Below are positions 7,401-35,985 of a stretch of 42,928 bases of DNA, in pieces. Positions within the stretch are counted from its first letter, which is position 1. Each line of letters starts with the position of its first letter. Source of the DNA: Propionibacteriaceae bacterium (lineage in GTDB: Bacteria; Actinomycetota; Actinomycetes; Propionibacteriales; Propionibacteriaceae); NCBI GenBank assembly GCA_030537675.1, contig JAUNVL010000008.1:8764-51691 (forward strand), in the 5' to 3' direction. The notes under the pieces were generated by a model. That model was not told where the DNA came from. It made no database searches and saw only the letters and a program-made list of their open reading frames with translations. The position numbers and the translations under genes are program-made.

Positions 7401-7998
7401 CCTCTGGATCATTTTCGCGATCGCCGTGTCCACGCTCATCCTGTCGCTCATCTTTGTCCTGGGCAACCGCTCCAAGGACGAGGCAGGCCCCGCGGCCACC
7501 AGCACCACCCAGAGCCAGCAGCCGGGGGGTGAACTGGCCATCGTCTCGGGAGTCGACTTCGACCCGGCGGGTGATGGTGGCAACGACGAGGAGAACACCT
7601 CCCAGGTGCCGCTGGCCTTCGACGGCGACCCGGAGACGGGGTGGCCCACGCTTGAATACCGCAATCGTCCCAACCTCGGCGGGCTGAAGCCGGGCGTCGG
7701 GATCGTTCTCGACCTGGGTGAGGCGCGCGACGTCTCGTCGGTGGACGTCCAGTTCTCCGCACCCGGGACGTCGGTGGAACTGCGTGTGCCCGCCGACGCG
7801 GCGGCCGACAAGGCACCCATGGGGTCCCAGGAGGAATGGAGCATCGTCGCCAGCCAGACCGACGCCCCCGCGACCACCACCCTGACCCCCGAGGTTCCCG
7901 CCAACACCCGCTATCTGCTGCTGTACCTGACGAACCTGCCGGAGGTGAGCACGGCGCGCTATCGGTCGGAGATCAACAACGTGGTGGTCAACGGCTGA
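4495..7998 (+). CDS. murJ: MurJ-type lipid II flippase fused to a pseudokinase and extracellular discoidin-like domain
   Basis: Residues 1 to about 535 form the multi-helix MurJ/MviN domain that moves lipid II across the membrane. An acidic linker follows. Residues about 637-900 resemble a Ser/Thr kinase but are catalytically dead: the VAIK lysine position reads VLAH (about residue 672), HRD reads HEQ (about 763) and DFG reads GFG (about 783). One membrane helix (about 968-990) leads to a 155-residue extracellular domain resembling F5/8 type C (discoidin). The 1167-residue length and layout match Rv3910 of M. tuberculosis, whose pseudokinase is phosphorylated by PknB and bound by FhaA; the same control is inferred here. 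GTG at 4495 has AAGGAGG 5 nt upstream and overlaps the preceding stop by 4 bp. Confidence 0.95.
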   Translation: MSTQVSTTKKLLSASVLMASGTLVSRILGLVRVMLIVYILGNTSRQADMLTLATSVPNSLYILFAGGALNTVLVPQIVRAIKNDDDGGEAYTNRIMTAFILIVGIVAVIVTIGAPVVTRLYAGGAFQVPELADQYASMVALTYLTLPQIFFYGVFFLLAQVLNARDRFGPMMWAPIANNVITIIVLSVYLFVWGTGDDHSLAFTPAQIWTLGLGTTLGIAAQTAVLLPYLRKVGFKFRPRFDLKGTGLGHTFSLTKWTIGFVAVNQLALWVVTKLATSATAVGGAGLFAYQNAHLLWILPHSLITVSLATAMLPNASRLAAAGDMRGVGQETTKIMRLALVALVPATVGFIALSEPITQLLFGNGVGARDSKWVGLALVAFAVGLVPFTVQFVCLRTYYAIENTRTPFLLQCIIAAVNAGGALLLVRLVTNPNLHAAVLALSYSIAYVVGVLVSWQILKRHVPDLDGGNLILHIFRLTLGASLGGVIAYITARQITSAMPDSKLGPLLSVIAGLAIIGLVYAGVGKLLQVREIGGLFDLLRARLGRGGKKAPEAATSGAQAEDMDPTRLQAAVDVEEDPDEVPDDERDTIADGSLPAVSDVNDSTGEESEPEPAEDDAEEAAPEEAVPVASLGEAGQLLSTRYRLEELLASRNGIETWRAHDLQLSRDVLAHVMPSGDARIPTVLDAARTGAAATDSRFLRVLDVVSLDDDSDVGGYVVCEYADGSPVSQLLRNVQLSTLEAAWIVRELADALSAMHNNGLFHEQLTPENVIITTSGAVRLVGFGVESVLAEEERPSSWSAKEAADVTALAALLYALLSNHWPGKAAWGLPAAPIIGGSLVGPHRLRPDVPAHLDKICTSVLSNSEETGDARITTSSQLAAALSNVLGSANPSPDLEDRLRNGFIQAPASGPDVDRNPALAAASVIETRHQEVHEQALEEIAARDFNEDETLENPLEYQRRLMPTKRPVLWIIFAIAVSTLILSLIFVLGNRSKDEAGPAATSTTQSQQPGGELAIVSGVDFDPAGDGGNDEENTSQVPLAFDGDPETGWPTLEYRNRPNLGGLKPGVGIVLDLGEARDVSSVDVQFSAPGTSVELRVPADAAADKAPMGSQEEWSIVASQTDAPATTTLTPEVPANTRYLLLYLTNLPEVSTARYRSEINNVVVNG

Positions 7999-8002
7999 AC
8001 CG

Positions 8003-8031
8003 TTCCACTTTCCGGCCGTCGCGCTTACAAT
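8003..8031 (+). promoter_or_regulatory. Promoter of the VOC protein gene
   Basis: TTCCAC at 8003-8008, a 17-nt spacer and TACAAT at 8026-8031. The start codon is at 8040, 8 nt after the -10, and no Shine-Dalgarno is present, so the message is probably leaderless or nearly so. Confidence 0.55.
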
Positions 8032-8039
8032 CCTGTGCA

Positions 8040-8474
8040 ATGACAGAGCGACCGTGGGACCTGCAGGTGGCCGTCGACTGCGACGACCCGCACGAACTCG
8101 CCACATGGTGGGCGGAAGCCCTCTCCTGGGAGGTCGAACCGCAGGACGCGGAATTCATCCAGTCGATGGTTGACCAGGGATTCGCCCAGGAGTCCGAGGT
8201 GCGGACGTTTCGCGGCAAGCGGGTCTGGGCGGCCGGCGCAGCCGTCATCCACCCCGATGGTCATCAGCCCCGGCTGCTGTTCCAGCGCGTTCCCGAGGGC
8301 AGGACGGTGAAGAACCGGGTGCACTGGGATCTCCGCCGCCCTCATGGAAGCCCGACGTCCGAGGACGTGGAGCGACTCGTCACGATGGGGGCTCAACGTA
8401 TCGGCGAGGGCCAACAGGGCCCCCACAGCTGGGTGGTCCTGGCGGACCCGGAGGGCAACGAGTTCTGCGTCTGA
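8040..8474 (+). CDS. VOC (glyoxalase-like) fold protein
   Basis: A 144-residue cytoplasmic protein of the glyoxalase/bleomycin-resistance/dioxygenase (VOC) superfamily. It starts MTERPWDLQVAVDCDDPHELATW, typical of the actinobacterial glyoxalase-like group. It has the second beta-alpha-beta module (VHWDLRRP through HSWVVLADPEGNEFCV) with the familiar DPEGN-F-C ending. The substrate is unknown. The ATG at 8040 is the only start that removes an unrelated upstream segment overlapping murJ. It has its own promoter 41 bp after murJ, so it is probably not part of the murJ operon. It converges on glpK. Confidence 0.8.
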   Translation: MTERPWDLQVAVDCDDPHELATWWAEALSWEVEPQDAEFIQSMVDQGFAQESEVRTFRGKRVWAAGAAVIHPDGHQPRLLFQRVPEGRTVKNRVHWDLRRPHGSPTSEDVERLVTMGAQRIGEGQQGPHSWVVLADPEGNEFCV

Positions 8475-8555
8475 GGCGCATTTGGTGGCGACGACGAAGC
8501 CGGCCGGCGCGGGTCTCCCCACGCCGCCCGGCTGTCGATGCGGGTCAGTGACCGA

Positions 8556-10076
8556 TCATTCGACCACGTCGTCGTCAACCCAGTCGAAGGTCCGGGTGAC
8601 GGCCTTCTTCCAGTTGCGGTACAGACGCTGCTGATCTGCATCGTCCATGTCCGGGGTCCAGCGCTTGTCCTCGGCCCAGTTGTCGATGACGTCCTGCTCG
8701 CCCTCCCAGAATCCGACGGCGATGCCGGCGGCGTAGGCCGCGCCCAGTGCGGTGGTCTCTGCCACCTTGGGGCGGACGACGTCGACACCGAGCATGTCAG
8801 CCTGGAACTGCATCAGCATCTCGTTGCCGGTCATGCCGCCGTCCACCTTCAGCTCGGCGAGTTCCACGCCCGAATCGGCTTCCATGGCATCCAGCACCTC
8901 ACGCGTCTGGAAAGCCGTGGCCTCCAGGACGGCGCGGGCGATGTGGCCGCGGTTGACGTAGCGGGTGAGACCGACCAGAGCACCGCGCGCGGTGGACTTC
9001 CAGTACGGCGCGAACAGACCGGAGAACGCCGGCACGAAGTACGCACCACCGTTGTCCTCCACCGTCGCTGCGAGCTTCTCCACCTCGGGTGCGGAGTCGA
9101 ACATCTTCAGGTTGTCCCGCAGCCACTGCACCAGCGAACCGGTGACAGCGATGGAACCCTCAAGGGCGTAGATGGCGTCCTTGTCGCCGATCTTGTAGCA
9201 GACGGTGGTCAGGAGGCCATTCTTCGAGGGAACAATCTCCGTGCCCGTGTTGAGCAGCATGAAGTTGCCGGTGCCGTAGGTGTTCTTGGCCATGCCCACC
9301 TCGAAGCACGCCTGGCCGAAGGTGGCGGCCTGCTGGTCACCGAGAATGCCCGCGATCGGGACTCCCTGCAGCATGCCCTTGACGCGACCCTCACCGTAGA
9401 CCTCCGCCGAGCTGCGGATCTCCGGCAGCATCGACATCGGAATGGTCATGTCCGCGGCGATCTCCTCGTCCCAGCTCAGGGTCTTGAGATCCATGAGCAT
9501 GGTGCGCGACGCGTTGGTGACGTCGGTGATGTGCAATCCACCGTCGACGCCACCGGTCATGTTCCAGAGCACCCAGGTGTCCATGGTGCCCATGACGAGG
9601 TCGCCGGCTTCCGCCTTCTGGCGTGCCCCTTCGACGTTGTCCAGGACCCACTTGACCTTGGGGCCGGCGAAGTACGTGGCGAGTGGGAGTCCCACCCGTG
9701 CCTTGTACTTGTCCTGCCCCTCTTCACCGCCCAGGTCGTCGACGATCTTGGCGGTGCGGGTGTCCTGCCAGACGATGGCGTTGTAGACGGGCTCACCGGT
9801 GGTCTTGTCCCACACCAGCGTGGTCTCGCGCTGGTTGGTGATGCCGACTGCGGCGATGTCGCTGTAGTTCAGCGACTTCTTGCTCAGCGCGTCAGCGACG
9901 ACGGCGCGGATGTTGTCCCAGATCTCGACGGCGTTGTGCTCCACCCAGCCTGCGCGGGGGAAGATCTGTTCGTGTTCCTTCTGGCCAGTGGCGACGATCT
10001 GGCCGCCGTGGTCGAAGATGATGGCGCGGGAACTGGTGGTTCCCTGGTCGATTGCGAGTACATACTTCTCAGCCAT
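8556..10076 (-). CDS. glpK: Glycerol kinase
   Basis: Phosphorylates glycerol to sn-glycerol 3-phosphate with ATP. The 506-residue length is normal for the FGGY kinase GlpK. The N-terminal phosphate-binding segment ([15 protein letters not shown]), the glycerol-contact region with [14 protein letters not shown] in the first domain, and [22 protein letters not shown] followed by [13 protein letters not shown] in the second ATPase half are all present. GGAAGTGAG lies just upstream of the ATG. It is the second gene of a glpF-glpK pair with a 47-bp gap. A GlpR-type regulator is not encoded in the window. Confidence 0.97.
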
Positions 10077-10123
10077 TGAGACTCACTTCCTTGTGGTGGT
10101 TGGTGATGATCGTGCGCATGGGA

Positions 10124-10918
10124 TCAGACGAGCAGGAACGTGCTGGCAACGCCGCCCAGCACACCTCCGATGAGGGGCCCGACGATCGGGACCCAGGAGT
10201 AGCCCCAGTCGGAGGTGCCCTTGCCCTTGATGGGGAGGAGGGAGTGCATGATGCGGGGACCGAGGTCACGCGTCGGGTTGATGGCGTAGCCGGTGGGACC
10301 ACCGAGGCTGATGCCGATGCTGACGACGAGCAGGGCAACGCCGAGAGCACCCAGCCAGCCCAGGTTCACGGGGCCACCTTCAGCCTGCGTGTTTGCGTAG
10401 TACCCGGCCGCGAAGATGGTGAAGACCAGGACGAAGGTGCCGATGATCTCCGTCACCAGGTTCCAGCCGTAGCTGCGGATTTCAGGACCCGTGGAGAAGA
10501 CGCCCAGCTTGAAGGCCTTGTTCTCCTCGGCATCGAAGTGCTGCTTGTAGGAGAGCCACATCAGACCGGCGCCGATCATGGCGCCCAGCAGCTGCCCAGC
10601 GAAGTAGACGAGCGTGGAAACAATCGAGATGGGAATTGCGCCCTCGATGAAGTCCGGTTCACCCATCATCGAGTTCCGCGCGATGATGCCGACCGTGACG
10701 GCCGGGTTGATGTGGGCGCCGGATGCGCCGGAGGCGAGGACACCGACGAAGACGGCGAGGCCCCAGCCCCAGTTGATGAGAAGCCAGCCGGTGCCCTGGC
10801 CCTTGGTGCCCTTGAGCAGGGTATTGGCGACGACACCGCCACCCAGCAGGAGCAGGAGCATCGATCCGACGGCTTCAGAGAGGAACACCTGCCCGAGGGT
10901 GATTTCAAGCACTTCCAT
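10124..10918 (-). CDS. glpF: Glycerol facilitator (aquaglyceroporin)
   Basis: A 264-residue MIP-family membrane channel with six predicted helices, for passive glycerol entry. The first pore motif is canonical (HINPAV, N71-P72-A73). The second reads AINPTRDLGPR, so the usual NPA is NPT (residues 214-216). The following R217 and D218 are kept; that Asp is typical of glycerol-conducting members. The gene is immediately upstream of glpK, which traps the substrate by phosphorylation. The start at 10918 has a purine-rich GGAAATGGGG stretch upstream but only a weak ribosome site. Confidence 0.95.
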   Translation of the reverse strand: MEVLEITLGQVFLSEAVGSMLLLLLGGGVVANTLLKGTKGQGTGWLLINWGWGLAVFVGVLASGASGAHINPAVTVGIIARNSMMGEPDFIEGAIPISIVSTLVYFAGQLLGAMIGAGLMWLSYKQHFDAEENKAFKLGVFSTGPEIRSYGWNLVTEIIGTFVLVFTIFAAGYYANTQAEGGPVNLGWLGALGVALLVVSIGISLGGPTGYAINPTRDLGPRIMHSLLPIKGKGTSDWGYSWVPIVGPLIGGVLGGVASTFLLV

Positions 10919-11083
10919 TTTACGACCCCATTTCCTGACGACAGTGTCAGCTAGTGCGTGTGTGACGCGGAGGCTCCGGGTCCATTCCCGGCTGCCACGT
11001 GGCCGGTGGGAGCCCTCGTGGCAAGCGCCAGCACCCCCCGGTGGTCACATCATTTCGGTGACTGCACGTCCTCGCAAGGCGCA

Positions 11084-11097
11084 TGCACGTTCGTGCA
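11084..11097. promoter_or_regulatory. Inverted repeat, possible operator upstream of glpF
   Basis: TGCACG-tt-CGTGCA is a perfect 6-bp inverted repeat with a 2-nt centre. A further TGCACG half-site lies at 11063-11068. If the -10-like hexamer at 11133-11138 is used, the repeat falls in the early transcribed region, where a repressor could act. The cognate regulator is unknown. Confidence 0.35.
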
Positions 11098-12164: not shown

Positions 12165-13038
12165 GCACCATGTGGTCGCACCCCCGGAAGGCGACGCCAC
12201 CCAGCGATTGACGTCGCTGCGCGTCCCCATGACCCACGACGAGATGGCTGCCGCGGTGGCAAGCCGCGGTTCCGTCTTCACGCTCGAGATGTGGCTGGTC
12301 CAGGCGAAGTCCTACGCAGGCAGCATCCTGGGCGTGGGCGTCCTGTCGCCGTTGTTGTACCTGATGGCCATGGGTGTGGGCCTCGGCGTGGTGGTGGACA
12401 AGGCCTCCGGCGGTGGGCTCGGGGTCCCATACCTGCATTTCGTCGCACCGGCGCTCCTCCTGACGACGGCCATGCAGGCCGCCACCGAGGAGAACACCTT
12501 CACCATCATGGGCGGATTCAAGTGGCGGGAGACCTACTACGCGCCGCAGGTCACCCCCATCGAGCCAGAGCAGATCGCGGGGGGCCACGTCCTGGGCGTG
12601 ACGTTGCGCTATCTCGTCACCTGCATCATCTATTGGGCCGTGCTGGCCGTGTTCGGCGCCATCCCCCACCTCCTGACGGGACTCCTGCTGATTCCCATCG
12701 GTGTCCTGTGCGCGTCGGCGGTGGGATTGCCCATCATGGCGTGGTCATCCACCATCACCCAGGACAAGGGTCAGTTCGCGCTGCTCGGCCGCTTCGTGAT
12801 CATGCCCATGATGCTTTTCGCTGGCACCTACTTCCCATTGGAGACCCTCCCGATCTACCTGCGGCCGCTCGGGTGGGTCTCACCGCTGTGGCACGCCGTG
12901 GAACTCGGACGTGCCGTCACGATCGGTGCACCGACCACGGCCATGATGGTCGTGGTGCATCTGGGCTACATGTCCGCCCTGTGCGTCATCGGCTGGGTGC
13001 TGGCGCGTCGGCACTACCGCCGGAGGCTCGTCGGATGA
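12157..13038 (+). CDS. ABC-2 type permease, first subunit
   Basis: A 293-residue membrane protein with about six hydrophobic helices after a soluble N-terminal segment of about 50 residues. It resembles NodJ-like ABC-2 permeases: amphipathic helix (MWLVQAKSYAGSILGVGVLSP), first helix with LLYLMAMGVGLG, and a final PLWHAVELGR segment typical of this group. A TTG start at 12157 with GGACGGAG 5 nt upstream gives the natural N-terminus; a GTG at 12172 is possible. It overlaps the ATPase stop and the second permease start, so the three genes form one operon and probably a heterodimeric channel. Confidence 0.85.
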   Translation: MTEHHVVAPPEGDATQRLTSLRVPMTHDEMAAAVASRGSVFTLEMWLVQAKSYAGSILGVGVLSPLLYLMAMGVGLGVVVDKASGGGLGVPYLHFVAPALLLTTAMQAATEENTFTIMGGFKWRETYYAPQVTPIEPEQIAGGHVLGVTLRYLVTCIIYWAVLAVFGAIPHLLTGLLLIPIGVLCASAVGLPIMAWSSTITQDKGQFALLGRFVIMPMMLFAGTYFPLETLPIYLRPLGWVSPLWHAVELGRAVTIGAPTTAMMVVVHLGYMSALCVIGWVLARRHYRRRLVG

Positions 13039-13880
13039 GCGCCCCCACTGATGAGCGCGCCACACTGCCGGACGCGCAGGGCCTCCTCCGGCGACCCTTC
13101 CGCTCCAGCATGTACAGCGGCAATGCCCGGGCCGTGTTCGACCGCGGTATCCGCTCGCAGTGGCAGGGCAACCTGTGGGTGATGGTGTCCGGCTTCATCG
13201 AGCCAGTGTTGTTCCTGCTGGCCATGGGACTGGGGCTGGGTGCGCTGATCGGCACCATCACGGACGATGCCGGCCGGTTCGTGGAGTACCCGGTCTACAT
13301 CGCCCCCGCCCTGCTGGCCACCTCCGCCATGAACGGTGCCGTGTACGACGCCACGTGGAACGTGTTCTTCAAGTTGAAGATCAGCAAGATCTACGGCGGC
13401 ATGCTGAACACCACCATCGGGCCCATGGACGTGGCCCTGGGTGAGATCGCCGTCGCGCTCGTCAGGGGCGGTGTCTACGCCACCGGTTTCGTGGCGGTGA
13501 TGGCGGTGCTGGGCCTGATCTCGTCATGGTGGGCTCTGCTGATGGTGCCCGCCTGCCTGTTGATCGCGTTCGGGTTCGCGGCCATCGGCATGGCCGCCAC
13601 CAGTTTCCTGAAAACGTTTCAGCAGATGGACTGGTTGACGCTGCTGCTGATGCCGATGTTCCTGTTCTCCGCCACGTTCTACCCCTTGAGCGTGTATCCC
13701 GAAGCGGTGCAGTGGGTCATCATGGCGCTGCCCCTGTGGCACGGCGTCGAGTTGTTGCGAGCGCTCAACGGCGGCTGGGTGGACTGGGGCACGGCCGTAC
13801 ACGCCCTCTATTTCGTGGTGCTGGCGCTCGCCGGGACGTGGGCTGCCTCGGTCCGTCTGAAGGCGCTGTTCCTGCGCTGA
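13035..13880 (+). CDS. ABC-2 type permease, second subunit
   Basis: A 281-residue paralogue of the preceding permease, with six predicted helices. The two share the segment around LFLLAMGLGLGALIG, the internal (F)K(L)KISKIYGGMLNT loop that parallels FKWRETYYAPQVT in the first subunit, and the terminal PLWHGVELLRAL motif. The ATG at 13035 overlaps the previous stop (ATGA) and has GGAGG 8 nt upstream. It likely pairs with the first subunit to form the transmembrane path for the ATPase encoded upstream. A small hairpin lies just downstream before a convergent gene. Confidence 0.88.
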   Translation: MSAPTDERATLPDAQGLLRRPFRSSMYSGNARAVFDRGIRSQWQGNLWVMVSGFIEPVLFLLAMGLGLGALIGTITDDAGRFVEYPVYIAPALLATSAMNGAVYDATWNVFFKLKISKIYGGMLNTTIGPMDVALGEIAVALVRGGVYATGFVAVMAVLGLISSWWALLMVPACLLIAFGFAAIGMAATSFLKTFQQMDWLTLLLMPMFLFSATFYPLSVYPEAVQWVIMALPLWHGVELLRALNGGWVDWGTAVHALYFVVLALAGTWAASVRLKALFLR

Positions 13881-13918: not shown

Positions 13919-14533
13919 TCAGAAAGCGTCGTACAGTTCCTCGGTGAAGGATGCGAGTTCGTCCACCGTGCTGTCCTCGGAAAGTGTGCCCACCCGCAAT
14001 GTCTCATTGCTGCCGGCCATGACGCACACAATGCTCTTCCCTCCGCTCGCCGTCGTCGACCCGCACACGGCCCGACCCAGGTAGGCAGGATCCGCCATGT
14101 TGTCGACGTTGATGGCGTAGGACGTCGTGGAGAAGGTGATGGCGGCTGATATCACGCCGATGGTTTCGGGGTCGTCATAGTCGGCGATCACGGATTGGGG
14201 GTCTCGCATCTCTTTGACGAACGCGTGGGCGCCCACCGTTTTCGGGAACGCCGGGTCAGACAGGTCCTTGAGGGAGTCGAGATTGAGCGGGGGGAATGCT
14301 CCCCAGTCGTCCGTTGCCGGCTCGGACGAGTCCCCGGAGGCAGAGGGGACGGGTGGGGTGGGTTCATCTGATGGCTCCCCCACCATCAGTGTCAGCCACA
14401 CGATCAGCGCAATGATCACCACCACCGCGACGGCGGCCACGACCCACCACAGGGGGTGGCTGGAGGTGTTCCGCGACGACGCGCTGGGCCCTGCCGCACG
14501 CGGGGGGGAGAACCCGTCCGGAGCCTGGCTCAC
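13919..14533 (-). CDS. Membrane-anchored unknown protein, fourth gene of the WXG-like cassette
   Basis: Not recognised. The 204-residue protein has a Ser/Pro-rich cytoplasmic N-terminus, one strong membrane helix (WWVVAAVAVVVIIALIVWL, about residues 29-48), an extracytoplasmic acidic Pro/Ser linker and a globular domain of about 120 residues. Two cysteines 13 residues apart in that domain (CGSTTASGGKSIVC) could form a disulfide. It begins with a GTG whose GTGA overlaps the stop of the preceding gene. As the last gene of a coupled four-gene set, it may tether or receive the helical proteins encoded upstream; that role is inference. Confidence 0.75.
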   Translation of the reverse strand: MSQAPDGFSPPRAAGPSASSRNTSSHPLWWVVAAVAVVVIIALIVWLTLMVGEPSDEPTPPVPSASGDSSEPATDDWGAFPPLNLDSLKDLSDPAFPKTVGAHAFVKEMRDPQSVIADYDDPETIGVISAAITFSTTSYAINVDNMADPAYLGRAVCGSTTASGGKSIVCVMAGSNETLRVGTLSEDSTVDELASFTEELYDAF

Positions 14534-15453
14534 AACTTCACGCCCTCGCCCTCGGGCCCAGTGTTGCCGTCGACGCGCAAGTCAGCGTTGCTTCCGTCCG
14601 ACCTCACGCCCTCACCCGTGCGTGCCGGATTGTAGGCCGCACCATCGCTGCCGGTGGGCCACATACCCACCTTGAGGAGGTGGGGCATCTCGATCGTTCT
14701 GCGGTGTTCGCGGCGCAGGGAGTTGGACGAGCCGTCGGCCACACCGCCATCCTCTGCTTCCGCGATCTCACGCTCCAAGTCCTGCATCACGGATATTGCT
14801 GTGGACGTTCGCCGGTAGTAGGTGAGAAAACCGCTGCCCGTGGCGCCGTTGATGGCGCCCACGCCCTTGCGAATTGCCTTGGCCACCACGAAGAACACTG
14901 CACGGTTCAGTTGGGCTCCCGCGTAGCAGCTCTGCGCCGTGCTGGACATGATGCCCTCCAGTTCCGTCAAGGCCTTGGTCTGCACCCCCACAATGGTGTC
15001 GTAGTTGCCTCGAGCAGTACCATCCCAATTTGCCATCGGGGGAAACTTCCCGATGGCTTCAATGTTGCGCACCACACTGGTCCGATTGTCAGACCAGGCC
15101 TGGAAATCGTCTTCGAGCTTGCGCGGGACGTCCTTGTGTTGGCCAATGCGGATCTCGCATCGCGATTCCACATGGTTGAGCTGCGCGGTGGCCTGCGCCT
15201 TCAACGCGTCCACCTCGTTGCCGAAGCGTGTTCTTTCCGCCTCGTAGTGGAGAATATTGACGATTTTGCTCTTGATGTCAGTCCAGTACGAGTTGGCGTC
15301 CGCGTCGTCGGCGGCCTTCGCGGCATTCACGGCGGCTTTCAGCTGGTCGAGCTGATGCTTGACGTCCGAGTACTCGCACGTGCCCGCGGCCGCGACTTCC
15401 GCCTTGTTGAGGGTTGCCCTCCAGCCGTTCAGCATCTCCAAGATCTTGATCAT
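14530..15453 (-). CDS. Helical protein with WXG-type WDG motif, third gene of cassette
   Basis: Not assigned to a named family with certainty. The protein has 307 residues. Residues 1 to about 235 look almost entirely alpha-helical, rich in Ala, Lys and Asp. A WDG triplet (W143-D144-G145) sits between two long helices, the position of the turn in WXG100/ESX substrate hairpins. A hydrophobic patch (AVFFVVAKAI) follows at about 185-194. The C-terminal 70 residues are low-complexity Gly/Asp/Ser. It has no signal peptide. Starts and stops overlap both neighbours by 4 bp. It may be an ESX-like secreted or partner protein, but no secretion ATPase is nearby. Confidence 0.7.
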   Translation of the reverse strand: MIKILEMLNGWRATLNKAEVAAAGTCEYSDVKHQLDQLKAAVNAAKAADDADANSYWTDIKSKIVNILHYEAERTRFGNEVDALKAQATAQLNHVESRCEIRIGQHKDVPRKLEDDFQAWSDNRTSVVRNIEAIGKFPPMANWDGTARGNYDTIVGVQTKALTELEGIMSSTAQSCYAGAQLNRAVFFVVAKAIRKGVGAINGATGSGFLTYYRRTSTAISVMQDLEREIAEAEDGGVADGSSNSLRREHRRTIEMPHLLKVGMWPTGSDGAAYNPARTGEGVRSDGSNADLRVDGNTGPEGEGVKL

Positions 15454-16886
15454 GAGATTTTGTTGGCTGTCGCGACGGCATCCTGTTCGTTGGATTCATA
15501 GGCTCCAGCCGCATTGTCGAGCTTGCCATTCAGCGACTCGAACTCGGAGCTTGCACCTGAGGACCACTCCGAGGCCGCACCCGACAGTTCCGAGTGTGAC
15601 GGCTCAACCTTTTTCACCAGCCCAAAATCGCTCTTCCGCTTGGATGCAGCAGCGAGCGCCTGCATCTCTGCAGCGAGGTCGCTCCACATCGTGCCGGTGT
15701 TCCTCAGCTCAGTGGGATCGTTCTTGTGGGTGTCACCGTCGCCGCCGCCGCCGGGTTCCTGCGGCTGCGTGGGTCCGACCGGCTCACGGGGCGTCACCGG
15801 CGGTCTTGATCGCACATCGTCGACGGGGTTGTGGGGTTGCGCCCATCCGTCGTTGCCACCACCGGGAAGGTCCGTCTGGCCGTTGTTGCCTCCGGGACGA
15901 ATACCACCCTCCGGCGTGACATTGGCGCCTGTCCCCGGGGTGTTCACACTCGACGTGGGCAGCCCGCCCGGACCGTTGCCAGTGTTGCCCGTGGTGAAGG
16001 CTCCGCCCGGAATGGTTGAGCCGCTTCCGTAGCCAGGGGAGGGCGTACCCACGTGCGACGTGGCTCCGCCGACGACAGGTGCGGATCCGTTGCCGGAGAG
16101 CCCTCCTGATGACGGCATGTCCTCGTAGCCGTAGCCACCGGACCCACTTCCGTAGTCGCCCGAGCCCCCACCGACCCCGCCAGGGCCTCCACCGATCCCA
16201 CCACCGAAGCCGCCAGTGCCTCCACCGACGCCGCTTCCGTAGCCACCCGAGCCTGCGCCGATGCCACCTCCACCGGAGCCCGAGGAACCGAATGGCAGGT
16301 CGGCGATCCCGTCGCCATTGACGTCGATGCCATCATCCACGTAACGGTCGGCGATGCCATCGCCGTTGACGTCGCCGGGGCCGGATCCGGCGGCCATCAC
16401 GCCGCCACCACCCATCCCACCGACGCCCATGCCGCTGGGCATGCCACCACCTATTCCGCCGGCGCCCAGACCGCCAGCACCCATGCCTCCCGCACCAGCT
16501 GCACCGAGACCGCCAGCGGGCATGCCGCCAGCCGTCAGTCCGCCCGCGCTTCCCATGGCACCAGGGGCCATCCCCCGGGCGACGCCCGCTGCGCCCATGG
16601 CCTGGGCACCGCCCATCCCGGACGGATCTCCGATGGCGCCACCACCAGCACCGCCGGCTGGTCCCGCACCTGCGGCACCGCCGCCGCGGCCGCCCATCAT
16701 CATCGGTGGCATCATCCCGGAACCAGCTCCACCGGCGCCCTTGCCGCCCTTGCTGTTCGGGTTGATGGAGGCTTCGCCGAGCTCATCGTCGGTGAGGAGG
16801 TCGTCGGAATCCGCCGTCACACCCTGGGCGCCGCTGAGCGAAGCACGCCGCTCAATTTCCGCCCATGGATCGTTTGAGTTGCTCAT
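15450..16886 (-). CDS. Glycine-rich protein with DxNxDG loops and EspC-like C-terminus
   Basis: A 478-residue protein. Residues about 45-380 are an extreme Gly/Ala/Met/Ser/Pro low-complexity region, interrupted near 170-196 by two copies of DVNGDGIAD, which resemble EF-hand or dockerin-type calcium loops. The last 90 residues form a helical module with AASEWSSG (W441) and then AYESNE (Y463 to E467). This fits the YxxxD/E type VII secretion signal and resembles EspC-type ESX substrates. No Sec signal peptide is present. The start overlaps the upstream stop as ATGA, and its own stop overlaps the next ATG. A surface or extracellular role is inferred from composition only. Confidence 0.75.
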   Translation of the reverse strand: MSNSNDPWAEIERRASLSGAQGVTADSDDLLTDDELGEASINPNSKGGKGAGGAGSGMMPPMMMGGRGGGAAGAGPAGGAGGGAIGDPSGMGGAQAMGAAGVARGMAPGAMGSAGGLTAGGMPAGGLGAAGAGGMGAGGLGAGGIGGGMPSGMGVGGMGGGGVMAAGSGPGDVNGDGIADRYVDDGIDVNGDGIADLPFGSSGSGGGGIGAGSGGYGSGVGGGTGGFGGGIGGGPGGVGGGSGDYGSGSGGYGYEDMPSSGGLSGNGSAPVVGGATSHVGTPSPGYGSGSTIPGGAFTTGNTGNGPGGLPTSSVNTPGTGANVTPEGGIRPGGNNGQTDLPGGGNDGWAQPHNPVDDVRSRPPVTPREPVGPTQPQEPGGGGDGDTHKNDPTELRNTGTMWSDLAAEMQALAAASKRKSDFGLVKKVEPSHSELSGAASEWSSGASSEFESLNGKLDNAAGAYESNEQDAVATANKIS

Positions 16887-17656
16887 GATTGCTCCTTCGG
16901 ATTCAGCATTGCCTTGAAAGCGGCCAGCAGAACTTCGTGTTCTGCTTCGACCTCGTCAATTTCACTGCGGTCGTCTTCAGCGGGGATGAAGCGTGCGTAC
17001 GCATTCTCCGCCGCACGCACGACATGCGTGCAGATGTCGCCCGCCTGGGCGGTGTCCAGCCATTTCGTGTCGAACGTCACCGCGTTGGCGATGCCGTCGT
17101 CGGTCAACGACACGGTGACACCCTTCGACTTGCCGGTGGTGGCGGGCCGTGGAAGCGGCACCTTTTCCTCGCGTCGTTCAAGAGCCTCGTCCCAGCGTCG
17201 CTCCACGTCGTCGAAGGCGTGCTGGAACGCGGCGAAGGAGCGCTGGCTGAAGGGGGGCAGCCCGCTGAAGTCCGCGTCGTCGTACGTGCGGACCTCTGGC
17301 GGCTCGACGCTTGCCACGTGGAGGTTGGCGTTCATCAGTGCCTGCATGAAGCAGTCGTCCAGAGTGCGCCGTTGCAGCCGGGAATGCCACCGCGGTGAAA
17401 CGCGGACCTTGGTGATTCGGTTCTCCTCCACCCAGACGCGGACGATTCCCTGGCTGTCACTGGCCGACCCGTCACCCATGACCGACCAGTCGGCCGGGGT
17501 GTCGTCGCCACCTTGTTCCTCGTGCATATCCTCGACGTCGTCGGTGTCGCTGTCGTGGCGTTCATCGATGTCCGGCCCGGGTGCCAATGGATCAATGTCC
17601 CCGATGTCCTCAGCGTCCACGACCCACACCTCCTCATCCCACGAAAATGACCCCAT
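16883..17656 (-). CDS. Protein with two YbaB-like segments, first gene of the cassette
   Basis: A 257-residue soluble acidic protein. Two regions resemble each other and the YbaB/EbfC fold: about 70-115 (VRVWVEENRITKVRVSPRW then a helix) and about 180-225 (VTVSLTDDGIANAVTFDTKW then a helix). A helical, charged spacer separates them. YbaB-like proteins often accompany actinobacterial WXG/ESX gene sets. ATG at 17656 is preferred: CATACT ends 7 nt upstream and there is no Shine-Dalgarno. A TTG at 17686 would add ten residues. It leads the four-gene coupled cassette and may act as a chaperone or assembly factor; that is inference. Confidence 0.7.
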   Translation of the reverse strand: MGSFSWDEEVWVVDAEDIGDIDPLAPGPDIDERHDSDTDDVEDMHEEQGGDDTPADWSVMGDGSASDSQGIVRVWVEENRITKVRVSPRWHSRLQRRTLDDCFMQALMNANLHVASVEPPEVRTYDDADFSGLPPFSQRSFAAFQHAFDDVERRWDEALERREEKVPLPRPATTGKSKGVTVSLTDDGIANAVTFDTKWLDTAQAGDICTHVVRAAENAYARFIPAEDDRSEIDEVEAEHEVLLAAFKAMLNPKEQS

Positions 17657-29233: not shown

Positions 29234-30472
29234 CTAGCTGGATGCGGGTGTCTGGGCGTGGCACCGGATGGTTTCCAGCGCTGCGACTTGCCGGTTGACG
29301 TCCTGCTCGCCCAAACCATGGGCGGCAGCCACGTCTGGCATCGTCCCGATCACCTGCGCGACTTCGTCGATGTGCGCGCGGACCCCGGAGAGGTTGATTC
29401 CGCAGTGTGTGCCGAGGGTGACGAGTGCGCTCGCCAGACCGATGTGCGTGTGGATGCCCGACAGGGGGGTGTGGCGTGGGTCCCCGGCCGCCTGCTCGGG
29501 GTTGACATCGAACATCGGGGACAGGTGCCAGGATCCGCCTCTGCGGACGAGGCCCATGTTACGGAGGTGGTCGTCGGTGTTGTTGATCATCACCGAGAAT
29601 GTGGTGCGTCGGAAGAATGCGTGCAGGTCAACGTCTGTGCGGGCTCGGAGGAACCGTGCGATGTGGTTGTAGTCGGCACGGGGCTTATTGCCGTCATCGG
29701 GATTGTTCATCATCGTCCGGAACGACATGTAGGGGATCCGGTCTCCGCTGTCGTCCCTGTCGAAACGGGCCAGGAGTAGCGCGTCGCGTATCCCGATCCT
29801 GACCAGGCGATTCCTGGGCACGTCGATTCCGGCGGCGGCTGCGAGGTCGAGCGCCGTCTTCTCCCACGCTTCGACGTTGCGGGAATCGGTGCGCATGGGG
29901 AACTTCGCAAGCCACAGGCGTCCGTCGGGTTCCACCACTGAAGCCTTCGGGCGTGCCCCACCGAGCGCGGTCGATCCTGCTTGGACGAGTTCTGAGATGG
30001 CCCCCATCTGGTCGGCACTGTCTGCCTCAACCTGGTCGGCAGCGTGGAGCAGTTCTGCGAGTGGGAGTCGGGCAGGTGGGCCGCTACAGGTGAGCCACTC
30101 GTCGCCACCCACGTGTTTGAAGCGCAATGCGCCTTGGCGCGCGAGGTCGGATGCGCCAGTGATGTAGTCCAGGTCATCGAAAGGTCCCTGCTGGGCGGCG
30201 TGCGCTTCTCGTTGGAGAAGGAGCTTGCCCCACCGGTCTGGTCCGGTGTCCTCAAGAAACATGGGCACGCCGCGAGTCTGGATCGGTTCGTCGTCGAGAC
30301 GGGATGCGTTGTTCAGCGGGAAACCGTCTCTGCCGTAGAGGAACTCCGGTTCGTAGGTGAAGTGTGACGTGGCAAGCCCTCCACGTCCATACACGGTCAG
30401 TTCTCCCACTTGCACGGTTCGCCCTGCCGTGTGCAGGTGCACTTCGACTCGACGAGCGCGTTCCGCGGTCAC
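29234..30472 (-). CDS. hipA: HipA-type serine/threonine kinase toxin
   Basis: The kinase toxin of a type II toxin-antitoxin pair; E. coli HipA phosphorylates glutamyl-tRNA synthetase. The 412-residue length is normal. The HipA N-terminal domain is followed by the Gly-rich segment STALGGARPKAS near residue 170, the ATP-binding lysine in WLAKFP, the catalytic NNTDDHLRN (N-x-D-x-H-x-x-N, near 300) and the metal-binding DVNP. All key residues are present, so it should be active. The GTG start at 30472 overlaps the HipB stop (GTGA), which indicates coupling with the antitoxin. Confidence 0.93.
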   Translation of the reverse strand: MTAERARRVEVHLHTAGRTVQVGELTVYGRGGLATSHFTYEPEFLYGRDGFPLNNASRLDDEPIQTRGVPMFLEDTGPDRWGKLLLQREAHAAQQGPFDDLDYITGASDLARQGALRFKHVGGDEWLTCSGPPARLPLAELLHAADQVEADSADQMGAISELVQAGSTALGGARPKASVVEPDGRLWLAKFPMRTDSRNVEAWEKTALDLAAAAGIDVPRNRLVRIGIRDALLLARFDRDDSGDRIPYMSFRTMMNNPDDGNKPRADYNHIARFLRARTDVDLHAFFRRTTFSVMINNTDDHLRNMGLVRRGGSWHLSPMFDVNPEQAAGDPRHTPLSGIHTHIGLASALVTLGTHCGINLSGVRAHIDEVAQVIGTMPDVAAAHGLGEQDVNRQVAALETIRCHAQTPASS

Positions 30473-30789
30473 AGCTGCCCCGATCGTTTGCGCACCCTCT
30501 GGACCGTCGTGCGGTGGGCGAGCTCACGGCCGTACCGGTCCTGGTACGGGTCGAGGGCTCGTGTGAGGTTGTCGGTGAGTTCGAGGACTGAGAGGACTCG
30601 CATGAGGGCTCCGATGCCGACGCCCTCTTGACCTTTTTCAAGCCGGGCGACCACCGGGGTCGACACGCCTGCACGTTTGGCGAGTTGTGCCATGGTGAGC
30701 TGCTGCAGTTTCCGCCATGCGGACAGGTACCCGCCGATCTGCTCGAGGGTCATCTCCACGAGCGGGTCAGGTATCTGATAGCGCTCCAT
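30469..30789 (-). CDS. hipB: HipB-type antitoxin, XRE family helix-turn-helix
   Basis: A 106-residue protein with an XRE/HipB helix-turn-helix (WRKLQQLTMAQLAKRAGVSTP then VVARLEKGQEGVG) and a basic C-terminal tail (VRKRSGQL). Expected to neutralise HipA and repress the operon. The ATG at 30789 has no Shine-Dalgarno; TAAACT ends 7 nt upstream, so the message may be leaderless. A perfect inverted repeat sits 2 nt upstream of that -10-like element, a suitable place for autorepression. Confidence 0.92.
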   Translation of the reverse strand: MERYQIPDPLVEMTLEQIGGYLSAWRKLQQLTMAQLAKRAGVSTPVVARLEKGQEGVGIGALMRVLSVLELTDNLTRALDPYQDRYGRELAHRTTVQRVRKRSGQL

Positions 30790-31050: not shown

Positions 31051-31695
31051 ATGCTCCTCGATCACCAGCCGACGAAGGCTGACATCACGCCACCACCGGC
31101 GCCACGGCCCGACGCCGTACAGCTCCGCGCTCGCAGAAGCCCCCGCCTGATTGCCGTCGGAGTACTGGCTGTCGTGCTCGGTGCGTTGGGCGCGGCTGCC
31201 CTCTACTCGATGAATACCGACCACGTGAGCGTCGTCGTCATGGCCAACGACGTGGTCCGCGGCGACGAGATCAAGGCCGCCGACCTCACGGTGGTGAGCG
31301 TGCCCTCGGGGTTGCAGGTCCAGATGAGCGGTGTGGATGAACTGGACCGGATGGTCGGCCAGACTGCGCGCAGCGACCTTCCGGCCGGTTCCTTTCCTCT
31401 GACACGGCACCTGGGGCAGGAACCCATCCCAGCGGGCCACTTCCTGGTGGGGATGAAACTCAGCCCGGGCCGACTTCCCTCGGCAGAACTCCCACCGGGT
31501 ACCCGTGTCCAGCTCGTCAGCCTGGCCGAGGGCGATGACACTGTGGTCGACGCCGTCGTGGCGTCCGCTCCGGCGCTCGCCGACGACGGATCCGGACTTT
31601 TGCTGGACGTGACGGTGCCGCTCGATTCGGCTGCCACCGTCGCGACGCTCGCCGCCACGGATCAACTGGTACTCATCGCCGCGGGTGATGGGTGA
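31051..31695 (+). CDS. SAF domain protein, CpaB/RcpC-like, of the tad locus
   Basis: A 214-residue membrane-anchored protein. A basic cytoplasmic N-terminus is followed by one helix (RLIAVGVLAVVLGALGAAAL, about 33-53). An extracytoplasmic SAF domain then starts at DHVSVVVMANDVVRGDEIKA. SAF/CpaB proteins are pilus-assembly components of Tad systems; their precise job is unresolved in monoderms. A perfect AGGAGGTGA ribosome site precedes the ATG. It is the first gene of the tad operon, and its stop overlaps the next start. Confidence 0.85.
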   Translation: MLLDHQPTKADITPPPAPRPDAVQLRARRSPRLIAVGVLAVVLGALGAAALYSMNTDHVSVVVMANDVVRGDEIKAADLTVVSVPSGLQVQMSGVDELDRMVGQTARSDLPAGSFPLTRHLGQEPIPAGHFLVGMKLSPGRLPSAELPPGTRVQLVSLAEGDDTVVDAVVASAPALADDGSGLLLDVTVPLDSAATVATLAATDQLVLIAAGDG

Positions 31696-32501
31696 TGGCC
31701 ACCATCGTCTTCACCAGCGCGTCGGGCTCACCCGGCGTGACCACCACAGCCGTGGGCTTGGTGCTCACGTGGTCCAGGGATGTCCTGCTGGCCGACTGTG
31801 ATCGCGACCCGTCGCAGGCCGTGCAGGCCGGGTACCTGCGCGGCATGGATCACGGTGGCCGCGGTTTGGCAGCCCTGGCGAGGCTGCATCGGGAGAACCG
31901 GGCGCTCGCGCCGGACCTGTGGCGACACACGGTCCCCCTGGCACTCGGTGATGAGCAGCGGCGTTTCCTGCCCGGTTTTTCGCAGCCCGCCACCGTACGC
32001 CTGTTCGACAGCGTGTGGCCGGAGCTCGCCGACGCCTTCGCGGCGCTCGATGAGCAGGGTGTCGACGTCATCGTCGACGCTGGAAGGGTTGGGCGCGACG
32101 GTCTTCCCCTGCCGCTGCTGGCGCAGGCCGACGCGGTGTGCTTCGTGACACGGACAGGCCTCCGTCCCCTGGCAGCGGCCCGCCTGTACCTTCCGCTGGT
32201 CGCTGAGCAGTTGGCGCACTTCCCCGTACCGAAAGCTCTGGGGCTCGTGCTCGTGGATCCCAACAACCCCTATTCGGGCAACGAGATCGCAGCCCAGTTC
32301 GGCGTCGCCTGCTGGGCAGAACTGGAATACAACACCAGACTGGCCATGGTGCTCTCCGACGGTGCCGCAGAACCAAGACGGTTCACCGAGAGCTCTCTCA
32401 TGAACCAGTACCGGGCCATGGGGCTCCGGCTGCGCGAACGCATTCGCAACGCCGCGGAACTTGAACGCGCGATGACGGCCAGAACGGGCGCCCATGTCTA
32501 G
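31692..32501 (+). CDS. CpaE/ParA-like P-loop protein of the tad locus
   Basis: A 269-residue protein of the MinD/ParA/CpaE superfamily, which in Tad systems localises or energises the assembly machine. The P-loop is degenerate: SGSPGVTTT replaces KGGVGKTT, so both lysines are missing, as in many actinobacterial members. LLADCDRDPSQ is the A' motif, VDVIVDAGRVGRDG the Walker B region. The C-terminal part contains LVLVDPNNPYSG. It may bind nucleotide weakly or not at all. GTG at 31692 overlaps the previous stop (GTGA); ATG at 31695 is an equal alternative. It overlaps tadA by 8 bp. Confidence 0.8.
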   Translation: MMATIVFTSASGSPGVTTTAVGLVLTWSRDVLLADCDRDPSQAVQAGYLRGMDHGGRGLAALARLHRENRALAPDLWRHTVPLALGDEQRRFLPGFSQPATVRLFDSVWPELADAFAALDEQGVDVIVDAGRVGRDGLPLPLLAQADAVCFVTRTGLRPLAAARLYLPLVAEQLAHFPVPKALGLVLVDPNNPYSGNEIAAQFGVACWAELEYNTRLAMVLSDGAAEPRRFTESSLMNQYRAMGLRLRERIRNAAELERAMTARTGAHV

Positions 32502-33936
32502 CCCTGCGTCCCAGCTCCCCAGCCTGGGTGGAGCCTTCTCGACTCTTGCCGCATCCGACTGGCATCCACCCGCAACGCCACGTCGCAACGGTGATGAGTT
32601 CGTCCCCTCCTCGACGGTGACGGACGTGGATTGGCAGCTCGTGGTCTCGCTACGACGCACAGCCGCCGAGCAGATCGGACTTGCCAGCGATCGGTGGCGC
32701 GATGAGCGCAACGCGCCGATGCCCCCGGAGGACCGCCGCGTGCAGGGTCGCTCCATCATTCGCTCCGTGGTGCACACCCACGCCGAGCGTCTCAGTGATC
32801 TGGGCGAGGCACTGTGGCCACTCGAGTTGGAAAACCGCTACGCCAACGCCGTCGAGAGCGCGATCTTCGGTTTCGGCCGCCTCCAGCCACTCTTCGACAT
32901 CCCGACCGCAGAGAACATCGAAATCCACGGCTGGGACTCCGTCATGGTGCAGTACGGCGACGGTAGCCGCACGTCGCACCCGCCCGTGGCGGATTCAGAC
33001 GAGGAACTGGTGGACGCCATCCGCTTCCTCGGGGAAACGGCGTCGGCCCCCCGCCCCTTCGATGATGCGCATCCGTCAATGACAGTGGCTCTCGGTGACC
33101 GCTTCCGCCTCCACGCGATGGGATTCTCCATCACTCACCGCCCCACCGTCGCGATCCGCCAGCACATCCTCACCGAGGTCACACTGTCCGACCTCGCCGA
33201 GGACGGCATGCTCTCGCAGCCGCTCGCGCGACTCCTGCAATCGGCCGTGCTGGCCCGCAAGTCCATCGTGATCTCCGGGGACCAGGGCGCCGGCAAGACC
33301 ACTTTGCTGCGCGCACTGATTGCCGCCATCCATCCCGGTGAGCGATTCGGCACCATCGAGACAGATTACGAACTGCTCACCCATCTGCAGAAACAACGAC
33401 GCAACGTCATCGCTCTCCAGGCGCGGATCGGACTGGGAGAGAGCATCTCCGGCCAGGCGGTCGGGTCGTGGAGCGTCGCAGACCTGATCCCCGAGGCCCT
33501 GCGCCAGAACCTCACACGACTCATCATCGGTGAGGTCCGCGGCTCCGAGGCCGGAGCGATGTTTGAAGCGATGACGGCCGGAGCCGGAACCCTCAGCACC
33601 ACGCACTCACATTCGGCCTCCTCCACCGTCGACCGTCTCGCTTCCCGGGTCGCGCAAGGTGGCGTCCTGACGGTGGAGGAGGCAATGCGACAGATCGCCC
33701 ACAACATCAGCTTCATCATCCACGTGCATCTCGAGGACAACTCGTGGCGCGGAGGGGTGAGACGTCGCTACGTCAGCGAGGTTCGGCAGATGACGGGGTC
33801 CATCGAGAACGGCCGACCCACCACCCATCTCGTCTATCGCGCGGCGACACACACCCACGGTGAACTGTTCCATCCCGAGGCGGAGATGGCCGCTGAGCTC
33901 TCGCGATACGACGTGGGGGCGCAATGGAACTCGTGA
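32494..33936 (+). CDS. tadA: Tad secretion ATPase TadA/CpaF
   Basis: A hexameric secretion ATPase that drives Flp pilus assembly at the cytoplasmic face. The protein has 480 residues, normal length. Walker A is SGDQGAGKTTLL (K268). The Asp box region reads TIETDYEL, Walker B is LIIGEVRGSEA (E347), and the His box is AGTLSTTHSHSA. An N-terminal helical domain of about 150 residues precedes the catalytic core. Overlaps with the genes on both sides indicate a tightly coupled operon. Confidence 0.95.
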   Translation: MSSPASQLPSLGGAFSTLAASDWHPPATPRRNGDEFVPSSTVTDVDWQLVVSLRRTAAEQIGLASDRWRDERNAPMPPEDRRVQGRSIIRSVVHTHAERLSDLGEALWPLELENRYANAVESAIFGFGRLQPLFDIPTAENIEIHGWDSVMVQYGDGSRTSHPPVADSDEELVDAIRFLGETASAPRPFDDAHPSMTVALGDRFRLHAMGFSITHRPTVAIRQHILTEVTLSDLAEDGMLSQPLARLLQSAVLARKSIVISGDQGAGKTTLLRALIAAIHPGERFGTIETDYELLTHLQKQRRNVIALQARIGLGESISGQAVGSWSVADLIPEALRQNLTRLIIGEVRGSEAGAMFEAMTAGAGTLSTTHSHSASSTVDRLASRVAQGGVLTVEEAMRQIAHNISFIIHVHLEDNSWRGGVRRRYVSEVRQMTGSIENGRPTTHLVYRAATHTHGELFHPEAEMAAELSRYDVGAQWNS

Positions 33937-34787
33937 TGGCAGCCTCCATCGGCGCAATGCTCGCTCTCGGTCCTGTCCTCCTGCTCGCAGGTCTCCGACG
34001 CGTGGAAAGACCGTTCTCCACCGCTGACTCCACAGGGCTGTGGAGAAAGGCCACGTTCCTGTGGAGTTCGTGGTCCGTTCTCCGTCGGATATGGGTGGTG
34101 GGCTCAGTCGTCGCAGGCGTCGTGGTCGCGGTGGCAACCGGATGGCTGATCGGGATCGTGCTGGTCCCGCTGGCCCTGCTCGGTATCCCTGCCCTCCTCT
34201 CGGAACCTCCGCAACATGAGATCGCGACGTTGGCTGGACTCGACCGGTGGATCCGGCTCCTGGCACCTTCGATCGCGACGGGGAAATCGATTCGGGACGC
34301 CATCCTGGCCACCAGAACACAGGCGCCAGCCATCCTGCGCGAGCCGGTGGCGCGGCTCGTGGCGCGCGTGGACCAGGGCTGGACCACCAAGGAAGCACTG
34401 TTGGCGATGGCCGATGACCTGTCCTGCGCGGATGCCGACGCAGTGCTGGCGGCACTGGCCATCTCGTCGAGCCGGGGCGGGGTCGGCACCCGCACGACGC
34501 TCGCTGCGCTGTCGGAGAATTCCGCCGAGCGGTTGCACTCGCTGAGGGAGATCTCGTCTGAGCGGGCCAAGCCGAGGGCCGTCGTTCGACAGGTCACCAT
34601 CATCACCCTCCTCGTGCTGGGTGGCTCCATGCTGCTCGGCGGGAATTTCTTCGAGCCCTACCGCACCCCTGTGGGCCAGGCACTCGCCCTGGCCTTGGCG
34701 GCGGCCTATGTGGGGGCGTTGGTCATGCTCCGCCGTCGCACCATCCCTGAGCCTGCGGCCCGATTCCTTCGGAGCTCCCCGCGATGA
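33924..34787 (+). CDS. tadB: Tad inner-membrane platform protein TadB
   Basis: A 287-residue type II/IV secretion platform (GspF-like) protein. The first membrane helix is at the N-terminus and a second pair lies near residues 55-95. A soluble helical domain contains ATGKSIRDAILATRTQAP and a SSSRGGVGTRTTLAALSENSAERL segment like that of other TadB proteins. The last helices are at the C-terminus (about 222-270). It would form the platform with TadC on which TadA acts. It overlaps tadA by 13 bp and tadC by 4 bp. Confidence 0.88.
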   Translation: MELVMAASIGAMLALGPVLLLAGLRRVERPFSTADSTGLWRKATFLWSSWSVLRRIWVVGSVVAGVVVAVATGWLIGIVLVPLALLGIPALLSEPPQHEIATLAGLDRWIRLLAPSIATGKSIRDAILATRTQAPAILREPVARLVARVDQGWTTKEALLAMADDLSCADADAVLAALAISSSRGGVGTRTTLAALSENSAERLHSLREISSERAKPRAVVRQVTIITLLVLGGSMLLGGNFFEPYRTPVGQALALALAAAYVGALVMLRRRTIPEPAARFLRSSPR

Positions 34788-35674: not shown

Positions 35675-35693
35675 ACGGCTCAGAAAAGAGAGT

Positions 35694-35702
35694 TGTGGAC
35701 AA
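35694..35702 (-). promoter_or_regulatory. DnaA-box-like 9-mer
   Basis: TTGTCCACA on the minus strand, in the short gap between tadC and the pilin-like gene. The significance of an isolated box is uncertain. Confidence 0.3.
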
Positions 35703-35754
35703 GTGCGGCCACCGACCAGCGGTGACCACAGTGGAAACAGAGAAAGGAAGTCAC

Positions 35755-35937
35755 ATGAAAATGTTGCACATGGCCTTGGCCCTGTGGTGGGGGATCTCCC
35801 ACCCTCTGCCAGTCAGGGATGAGCGCGGACTGTCCCAGTCCACGGAGAATGCCATCCTCCTGGCCGGCGCGGTCACCGTCGCCGTACTGGTTGTGACGGT
35901 GATCACCGCCTACGTGAAATCACGTCTCCCAGCCTGA
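35755..35937 (+). CDS. Flp-like small pilin
   Basis: A 60-residue protein with an AAAGGAAG ribosome site before the ATG. A short hydrophobic leader region is followed by ERGLSQSTENAILLAG and one long hydrophobic helix (to about residue 55). The pattern resembles actinobacterial Flp pilins, where a Gly is the prepilin cleavage site and a Glu lies a few residues later at the helix start. Here the usual E-Y pair is E-N and the Glu is at +6 if cleavage follows the Gly. The position after tadABC supports the major pilin role. The frame could also encode a small membrane accessory protein. Confidence 0.75.
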   Translation: MKMLHMALALWWGISHPLPVRDERGLSQSTENAILLAGAVTVAVLVVTVITAYVKSRLPA

Positions 35938-35985
35938 TGCGACGGGCGGGTACACGTCGATGTGCAGCAGGACAGGGGTGATCAG

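Follow-up and report, generated by a model that had tools for sequence, protein, structure and literature searches.

A 42,928-nucleotide stretch of a Propionibacteriaceae genome (positions 8764-51691 of contig C97 in genome G000, an assembly of 3.06 Mb in 213 contigs; hereafter the window) carries four overlapping genes that we read, with a probability of roughly 0.82, as a substrate-chaperone operon of the ESX, or type VII, secretion system (T7SS) that works like the mycobacterial espACD and espEFH operons. This reading is based on gene order, on family-level similarity of the proteins, on an ESX locus that the genome itself carries, on close co-occurrence with ESX machinery across genomes and on one case of physical linkage. 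By analogy, the proteins would pair, be chaperoned and exported, act at the cell surface and be held there by the fourth protein. In the direction of reading, the genes are as follows:

16883-17656, minus strand: P1, an open reading frame for a YbaB-like protein, apparently of two tandem segments, with an acidic N-terminus carrying a DPLAP motif
15450-16886, minus strand: P2, an open reading frame for a putative EspC-type ESX substrate with a long N-terminal extension
14530-15453, minus strand: P3, an open reading frame for a putative EspA/EspE-like partner substrate
13919-14533, minus strand: P4, an open reading frame for a predicted membrane-anchored extracytoplasmic protein with a cysteine pair

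Each junction is a 4-bp overlap (ATGA at 16883-16886 between P1 and P2, ATGA at 15450-15453 between P2 and P3, GTGA at 14530-14533 between P3 and P4). An initial annotation had described these leftward frames and overlaps, at coordinates that hold exactly, and had sketched their products as a two-segment YbaB-like protein, a glycine-rich protein with an EspC-like tail, a helical protein with a WDG turn and a membrane-anchored protein with a cysteine pair; the two P1 segments (weakly alignable), the P2 tail, the WDG of P3 and a hydrophobic segment and cysteine pair in P4 are all present. The arrangement recurs in relatives. Among 30 P3 copies, namely those in loci fetched for holding P1 or P3, 17 keep the immediate order P1-P2-P3, and in 12 a P4 relative comes directly after P3. 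Because 17 of the 30 retain it, the P1-P2-P3 order is more than chance. Genes were called with a simple script that may miss glycine-rich P2 genes and misplace starts. Pfam and NCBIfam scans with the four single window proteins gave nothing useful (P4 matched no family in them), whereas scans across family members were informative; the Pfam counts below for P1, the P2 tail and P3 include the window copy.

The YbaB family (PF02575) matches 22 of 28 P1 family members, with a best E value of 2.7e-6. The halves of P1 align in register, if weakly (E 0.0012, probability 19%, 49 columns; a single hhalign comparison), and this alignment suggests two YbaB-like lobes. All 28 members are acidic (isoelectric points 4.05-4.89). 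Against PDB profiles P1 finds a weak match to the nucleoid-associated protein Rv3716c (5yrx; E 0.11). Translation probably starts at GTG 17620 rather than ATG 17656, since a ribosome-site-like GAGGAGG stretch precedes the GTG and many relatives, as called by the script, begin some 8-11 residues ahead of the DPLAP motif; other relatives extend further upstream.

P2 is 478 residues long, 29% of them glycine, and contains four features of note:

16689-16886, minus strand: a conserved N-terminal motif (W..EL.RRA, SDDLL, INPN, MMPPMMMGG) with nine invariant columns in a 19-row alignment
16299-16373, minus strand: two DVNGDGIAD calcium-binding-like repeats, following the pattern D.[DN]GDG..D
15453-15704, minus strand: a C-terminal EspC/WXG-like domain, assigned from PF10824 matches in family members and alignment to the genome's own WXG100 proteins
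15486-15500, minus strand: YESNE, an instance of YxxxE, an ESX secretion motif according to PMC6107294

Of the 24 P2 tails in the family, EspC (PF10824) matches 14, WXG100 nine, PE eight, WXG100_2 six, PPE three and EspB_PE two; nine other Pfam families match one member apiece, and all those that match at least two members are T7SS families. The best EspC match stands at 1.5e-4 and the curated cut-off is not reached (the P2 of locus L177, for example, scores 18.3 against 23.5 bits). A YxxxE motif lies near the C-terminus in 21 of 23 P2 sequences. Matches to WXG100 (PF06013) peak at 2.3e-4 and leave out the window copy, so that P2 is not assigned to that family of about 100 residues by a score over its cut-off; the PE matches are weak (best 0.0071), as are those to PPE (best 0.087). 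In single profile comparisons the tail aligned to one WXG100 family of its own genome at E 6e-6 (0.79 when reversed), to the other at 7.8e-4 (reversed 0.011) and, at 2.4e-6 (reversed 0.045), to the part of P3 around the WxG. The calcium-type pattern occurs in 9 of 23 P2 sequences, and the repeats may bind calcium. An apparent P2-P3 fusion in locus L099 was discarded as a likely frameshift or gene-call artefact.

P3, of 307 residues, contains one short feature of note:

15019-15027, minus strand: the WDG (WxG) turn, with W143 invariant and G145 conserved in at least 90% of 28 rows

The extended pattern W.G.....Y is found in 27 of 30 P3 sequences. EspA_EspE (PF18879) matches 14 of 28 family members (best 4.7e-4), and no other family matches more than two. 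WXG100 (PF06013) is among these minor matches, in 2 of the 28 (best 0.36), and P3 does not belong to it by score; PPE is absent from the first 25 of the 36 Pfam families listed for P3 members. Against PDB profiles, an ESAT-6-like protein (4i0x_B) aligns over the WxG hairpin at E 0.0015, followed by unrelated or designed helical proteins from E 0.0074. P4 has a hydrophobic segment, recognized by eye, and cysteines at C157 and C170; the pair is present in all 18 P4 sequences and a lipobox-like motif in 5 of them. Another P3 relative in the window's genome has two P4 relatives after it and neither P1 nor P2 beside it (contig C78, locus L094, 7800-10233).

The initial annotation called the cassette an orphan and placed its export machinery elsewhere. 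The first term fits the window, where no Ecc gene was seen (the Pfam scan covered 14 window proteins), and fails for the genome, where contig C160 (locus L163) encodes EccB, EccE, EccD and both halves of EccC, all over their NCBIfam cut-offs. A mycosin stands beside them (E 1.1e-65, below its cut-off at 222 versus 279 bits), as do two WXG100 proteins, both over the Pfam cut-off. The genome's single EccB match is on this contig, as are both of the EccC matches listed, out of three. Export machinery elsewhere is thus what we find, and through the family the presence of the cassette tracks that of EccB. Three hallmarks of an espACD/espEFH-type ESX substrate operon are found: a YbaB-like protein adjoining a substrate pair (PF02575 in 22/28, order kept in 17/30, the window copy below the curated cut-off), an EspC-type partner with YxxxD/E (YxxxE in 21/23, PF10824 in 14/24) and an ESX machine in the same genome (mycosin below cut-off). 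The ESX locus on the other contig and the EccB co-occurrence support the annotation's proposal that a YbaB-like gene beside WXG-like genes forms an ESX module.

Of 197 family genomes, 54 have EccB. It occurs in 28 of 29 genomes with P1 and 26 of 168 others (Fisher 6e-18), and in 34 of 35 genomes with the P2 motif and 20 of 162 others (Fisher 6e-23). Collapsed by hand to genera, the sole correction for kinship applied to these statistics, the association stands at 11/12 versus 3/17 (p 1.2e-4). In a 60-genome sample, EccB is found in 17 of 18 genomes with P3. Genomes keeping the cassette without any EccC, which the initial annotation had named as evidence that would count against it, were looked for through EccB in the 197 family genomes and through EccC and EccB in the 60. 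Three exceptions emerged, each partial, broken or weak: G003 has only short fragments of P3 and a P4 match that contains a stop, lacks EccB and shows an EccC-profile match at only E 9.7e-13; G091 has a partial P1 with one TGA and G125 a weak P2-motif match (E 2.8e-4), both lacking EccB in a search for EccB alone.

The converse case, EccB without P3, occurs in seven genomes of the genus (G002, G004, G005, G010, G017, G023, G034). In G002, G005 and G017 the ESX locus has a different arrangement, and its EccC shares about 40% identity with EccC of the cassette type. An EccC tree of 17 sequences, drawn from 14 of the 17 EccB-bearing P3 genomes and 3 of the 7 EccB-only genomes, separates cassette-bearing from P3-less genomes cleanly. 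Physical linkage is seen in G011, whose ESX locus includes a P2-P3 pair, flanked by eccB and the WXG100 pair (L177, 15058-17174); the only P1 match of that genome is on a separate contig.

The cassette is concentrated in Propionibacteriaceae. A first search of genome contigs with P3 only found no relative; a single P3 query then matched 18 of 60 genomes, all of the window's genus and often with several copies each. Of the 197 family genomes, 29 have P1 relatives (8 of 29 genera) and 35 carry the N-terminal motif of P2 (12 of 29 genera); the P3 profile matches at least 29 of 352 order genomes, 28 of those in Propionibacteriaceae. The P1-P2-P3 set is repeated across genomes of the Tessaracoccus group, to which the window's host is also assigned, and present in other genera of the family (L217, L218, L219); the eight P2-motif loci carrying names come from four Tessaracoccus species, 'Propionibacteriaceae bacterium P6A17' and a metagenome-assembled genome of a Propionibacterium sp. 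Copies are numerous in G114, a 2.7 Mb genome of another genus, with ten P1 and nine P2-motif matches at 9 to 10 dispersed loci, some copies incomplete by the gene calls. Outside the family, 394 class genomes gave four weak matches to the P2 N-terminal motif (E 0.0011-0.0064). Four loci with EspA_EspE matches (L221-L224), presumably of Nocardioidaceae, matched none of the profiles for P1, the P2 N-terminus, the P2 C-terminus or P3.

Mycobacterial work supplies the model. In PMC6107294, EspH of M. marinum has a YbaB-like predicted structure, binds EspE and is required for secretion of EspE and EspF. EspD, its YbaB-like homologue, stabilises EspA and EspC; WxG lies on EspA and EspE and YxxxD/E on EspC and EspF; and the distance from espACD to ESX-1 exceeds 260 kb (PMC6107294). 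For EspL the source is PMC6319747. All three of these parts recur in the cassette, each signal on the corresponding partner, and from this we propose P1 as chaperone, the P2 tail and P3 as an exported pair and EccC as receiver. P1, apparently two-lobed, is likely a dedicated cytosolic chaperone of P2 and P3. P2 and P3 would pair through WXG-type helical hairpins, P3 contributing the WxG turn and the EspC-like P2 tail the YxxxE, and the pair would be passed to EccC of the ESX machine on the other contig and exported. Outside the cell, the glycine-rich P2 arm could form an extended surface structure, usually together with the N-terminal motif and, in certain copies, calcium-binding-like repeats; P4, anchored by a transmembrane segment or lipid and carrying a disulphide-type cysteine pair, may hold or receive it at the membrane. 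A surface fibre held by P4 as the use of the P2 arm and motif is a guess.

Several observations weigh against this model. The window copies match their profiles poorly or not at all: P1 scores 0.044 against PF02575, below the curated cut-off, the P2 tail does not match EspC (PF10824), and P3 neither matches EspA_EspE (PF18879) nor passes its curated cut-off. The low probability of the half-to-half P1 alignment detracts from the two-lobe proposal. Against PDB profiles the P2 tail scores best with a coiled-coil M-protein chimera (E 0.015), an ESAT-6-like protein coming behind at 0.35, and P3 aligned to its own WXG100 families at best at E 0.0066 over 12 columns (hhalign), which is unconvincing. 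EspA_EspE also cross-matches the genome's own canonical WXG100 at 0.0066, lands in G078 on a WXG100-sized 105-residue frame (8073-8390 of L229) and, at E of 0.01 or below, matches at least 65 of 391 order genomes, one over its cut-off, and one of 14 control genomes, below it; the profile may be a mere marker of the WXG superfamily. In light of these cross-matches and the failure of the window copy, 'EspA/EspE-like' appears the best family name for P3, short of proven membership. Finally, related genomes are not independent samples, and in every locus read except that of G011 the cassette is unlinked to ESX.

Other explanations were weighed against the same data. P1 might be a YbaB-type nucleoid or transcription regulator controlling a P2-P4 surface operon, as the Pfam name YbaB_DNA_bd and the description of canonical YbaB as DNA-binding (cited in PMC6107294) would have it. 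We regard this as unlikely: the acidity of P1 hints, and only hints, against DNA binding, P1 is translationally coupled to P2 and co-conserved with P2, P3 and ESX, and in M. marinum deletion of espH left espE and espF mRNA unchanged while EspH bound EspE (PMC6107294). Slightly less probable still is an antibacterial T7SS toxin-immunity set with P3 as effector, P1 and P2 as targeting partners and P4 as extracytoplasmic immunity protein. P4 does look anchored outside, it directly follows P3 in the 12 copies noted above, and contig C78 pairs a P3 with two P4 copies. Yet no toxin domain rises above noise, either in P3 of the window or in the Pfam families listed for P3 relatives (Ntox35, at 0.14, is noise), and P3 relatives can be aligned over the greater part of the protein, with conserved columns close to each end, unlike proteins with swapped toxin tails.

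The least probable alternative, to which we give very little weight, is a glycine-rich surface protein operon exported by another route, its ESX co-occurrence a product of shared ancestry. Non-independence of the genomes favours it, as does the confinement of strong motif matches to one family in our samples. Inspection by eye finds no signal peptide in P1-P3, however, and the EccB association persists by genus, a P2-P3 pair sits inside the G011 ESX locus, and the exceptions to co-occurrence are the partial, broken or weak cases above. A chaperoned ESX substrate pair remains our preferred reading.

On one side the operon is flanked by a gene with its stop at 17834, which we take from its sequence to be ptsI, and on the other by a convergent ABC-type permease gene (13035-13880). 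One further feature lies upstream of P1:

17721-17751, no strand: a 13-bp inverted repeat without mismatches, situated between ptsI and P1 and seen on reading the sequence

It is a possible terminator of the gene upstream of P1; the terminator scan did not pick it up, and the promoter and terminator scan was uninformative overall. In loci L098, L102, L103, L110 and L119, cassette copies or a lone P1 lie between genes that we take to be glpF/glpK-like and an MMPL-type exporter, and such genes also stand on both sides in the window, further out; this suggests an ancestral cassette site. Three mutually clustering frames of 66-71 residues lie just downstream of a cassette copy in G001 (L096, 5698-7292). 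L229 of G078, from another genus, has a WXG100-sized pair and frames of 134 and 685 residues beside eccB (7749-11094). In the window's genome, weak WXG100 matches fall in open frames of 287-620 residues on contigs C174, C21, C143 and C75, possibly further ESX substrates. Elsewhere in the window, plus-strand genes at 31174-38691 encode what we assume to be a Tad/Flp-type pilus or secretion system, with a SAF protein, a T2SSE ATPase (32617-33936) and two T2SSF proteins (34095-35674), the second below its cut-off. On the minus strand, 29234-30789 encodes a HipA-like protein and an adjoining small helix-turn-helix protein, likely a HipBA-type toxin-antitoxin pair.

By title or the start of the abstract, none of the papers found on YbaB with EspL, EspA or EspC, on espACD homologues in Actinobacteria, on ESX and EccB in Nocardioides, on EspE in Gordonia or on WXG100 in Propionibacteria describes this gene set, and a search with most subscription papers outside its reach found none on type VII secretion in Tessaracoccus or on type VII secretion and WXG in Propionibacteriaceae. 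EspH-like proteins have been described as ESX-1-only (PMC6107294). The term 'ESX-4-like' for the Propionibacteriaceae machine comes from PMC4791881, which reports ESX-4 clusters in Propionibacteriales. A bolder proposal, which we hold tentatively and with somewhat less than even confidence, makes the cassette genuine kin of espACD/espEFH, possibly in an older form. The YbaB-EspC-EspA system would then have its origin outside ESX-1 and work with an ESX-4-like machine in Propionibacteriaceae, where it would have developed into multi-copy fibres at the cell surface, stiffened by calcium and anchored through P4. An espACD-like set in this family would, if real, move the origin of the module outside mycobacterial virulence systems. 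It would also allow the transfer of EspA/EspC-type pairs from YbaB-type chaperones to EccC to be studied in non-mycobacterial organisms, and would supply the ESX systems of these actinobacteria with a large family of candidate substrates.

Among known systems, espACD and espEFH come closest, sharing a YbaB-like partner, an EspC-type protein with YxxxD/E and a larger WxG protein; like espACD, the cassette is unlinked to an ESX locus. It differs in the seemingly two YbaB-like segments of P1, in a fourth, anchored protein, in its often several copies per genome and in its Propionibacteriaceae host. EspC is a short protein, whereas P2 adds the conserved N-terminal motif, the glycine-rich arm and sometimes calcium-like repeats; we know of no EspC counterpart for the arm or the motif. 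PE/PPE-EspG systems likewise combine a chaperone with a partner pair, YxxxD/E on one and WxG on the other, but here the putative chaperone is YbaB-like and the PE/PPE matches are too weak to settle membership. P3 and the P2 tail share a putative WXG-type hairpin with the WXG100 proteins EsxA and EsxB, yet the full proteins are far longer and the WXG100 profile is weak or absent. P1 resembles canonical YbaB/EbfC by profile and departs from it in its length of about 250 residues, its two segments, its acidity and its place beside ESX-type substrates.

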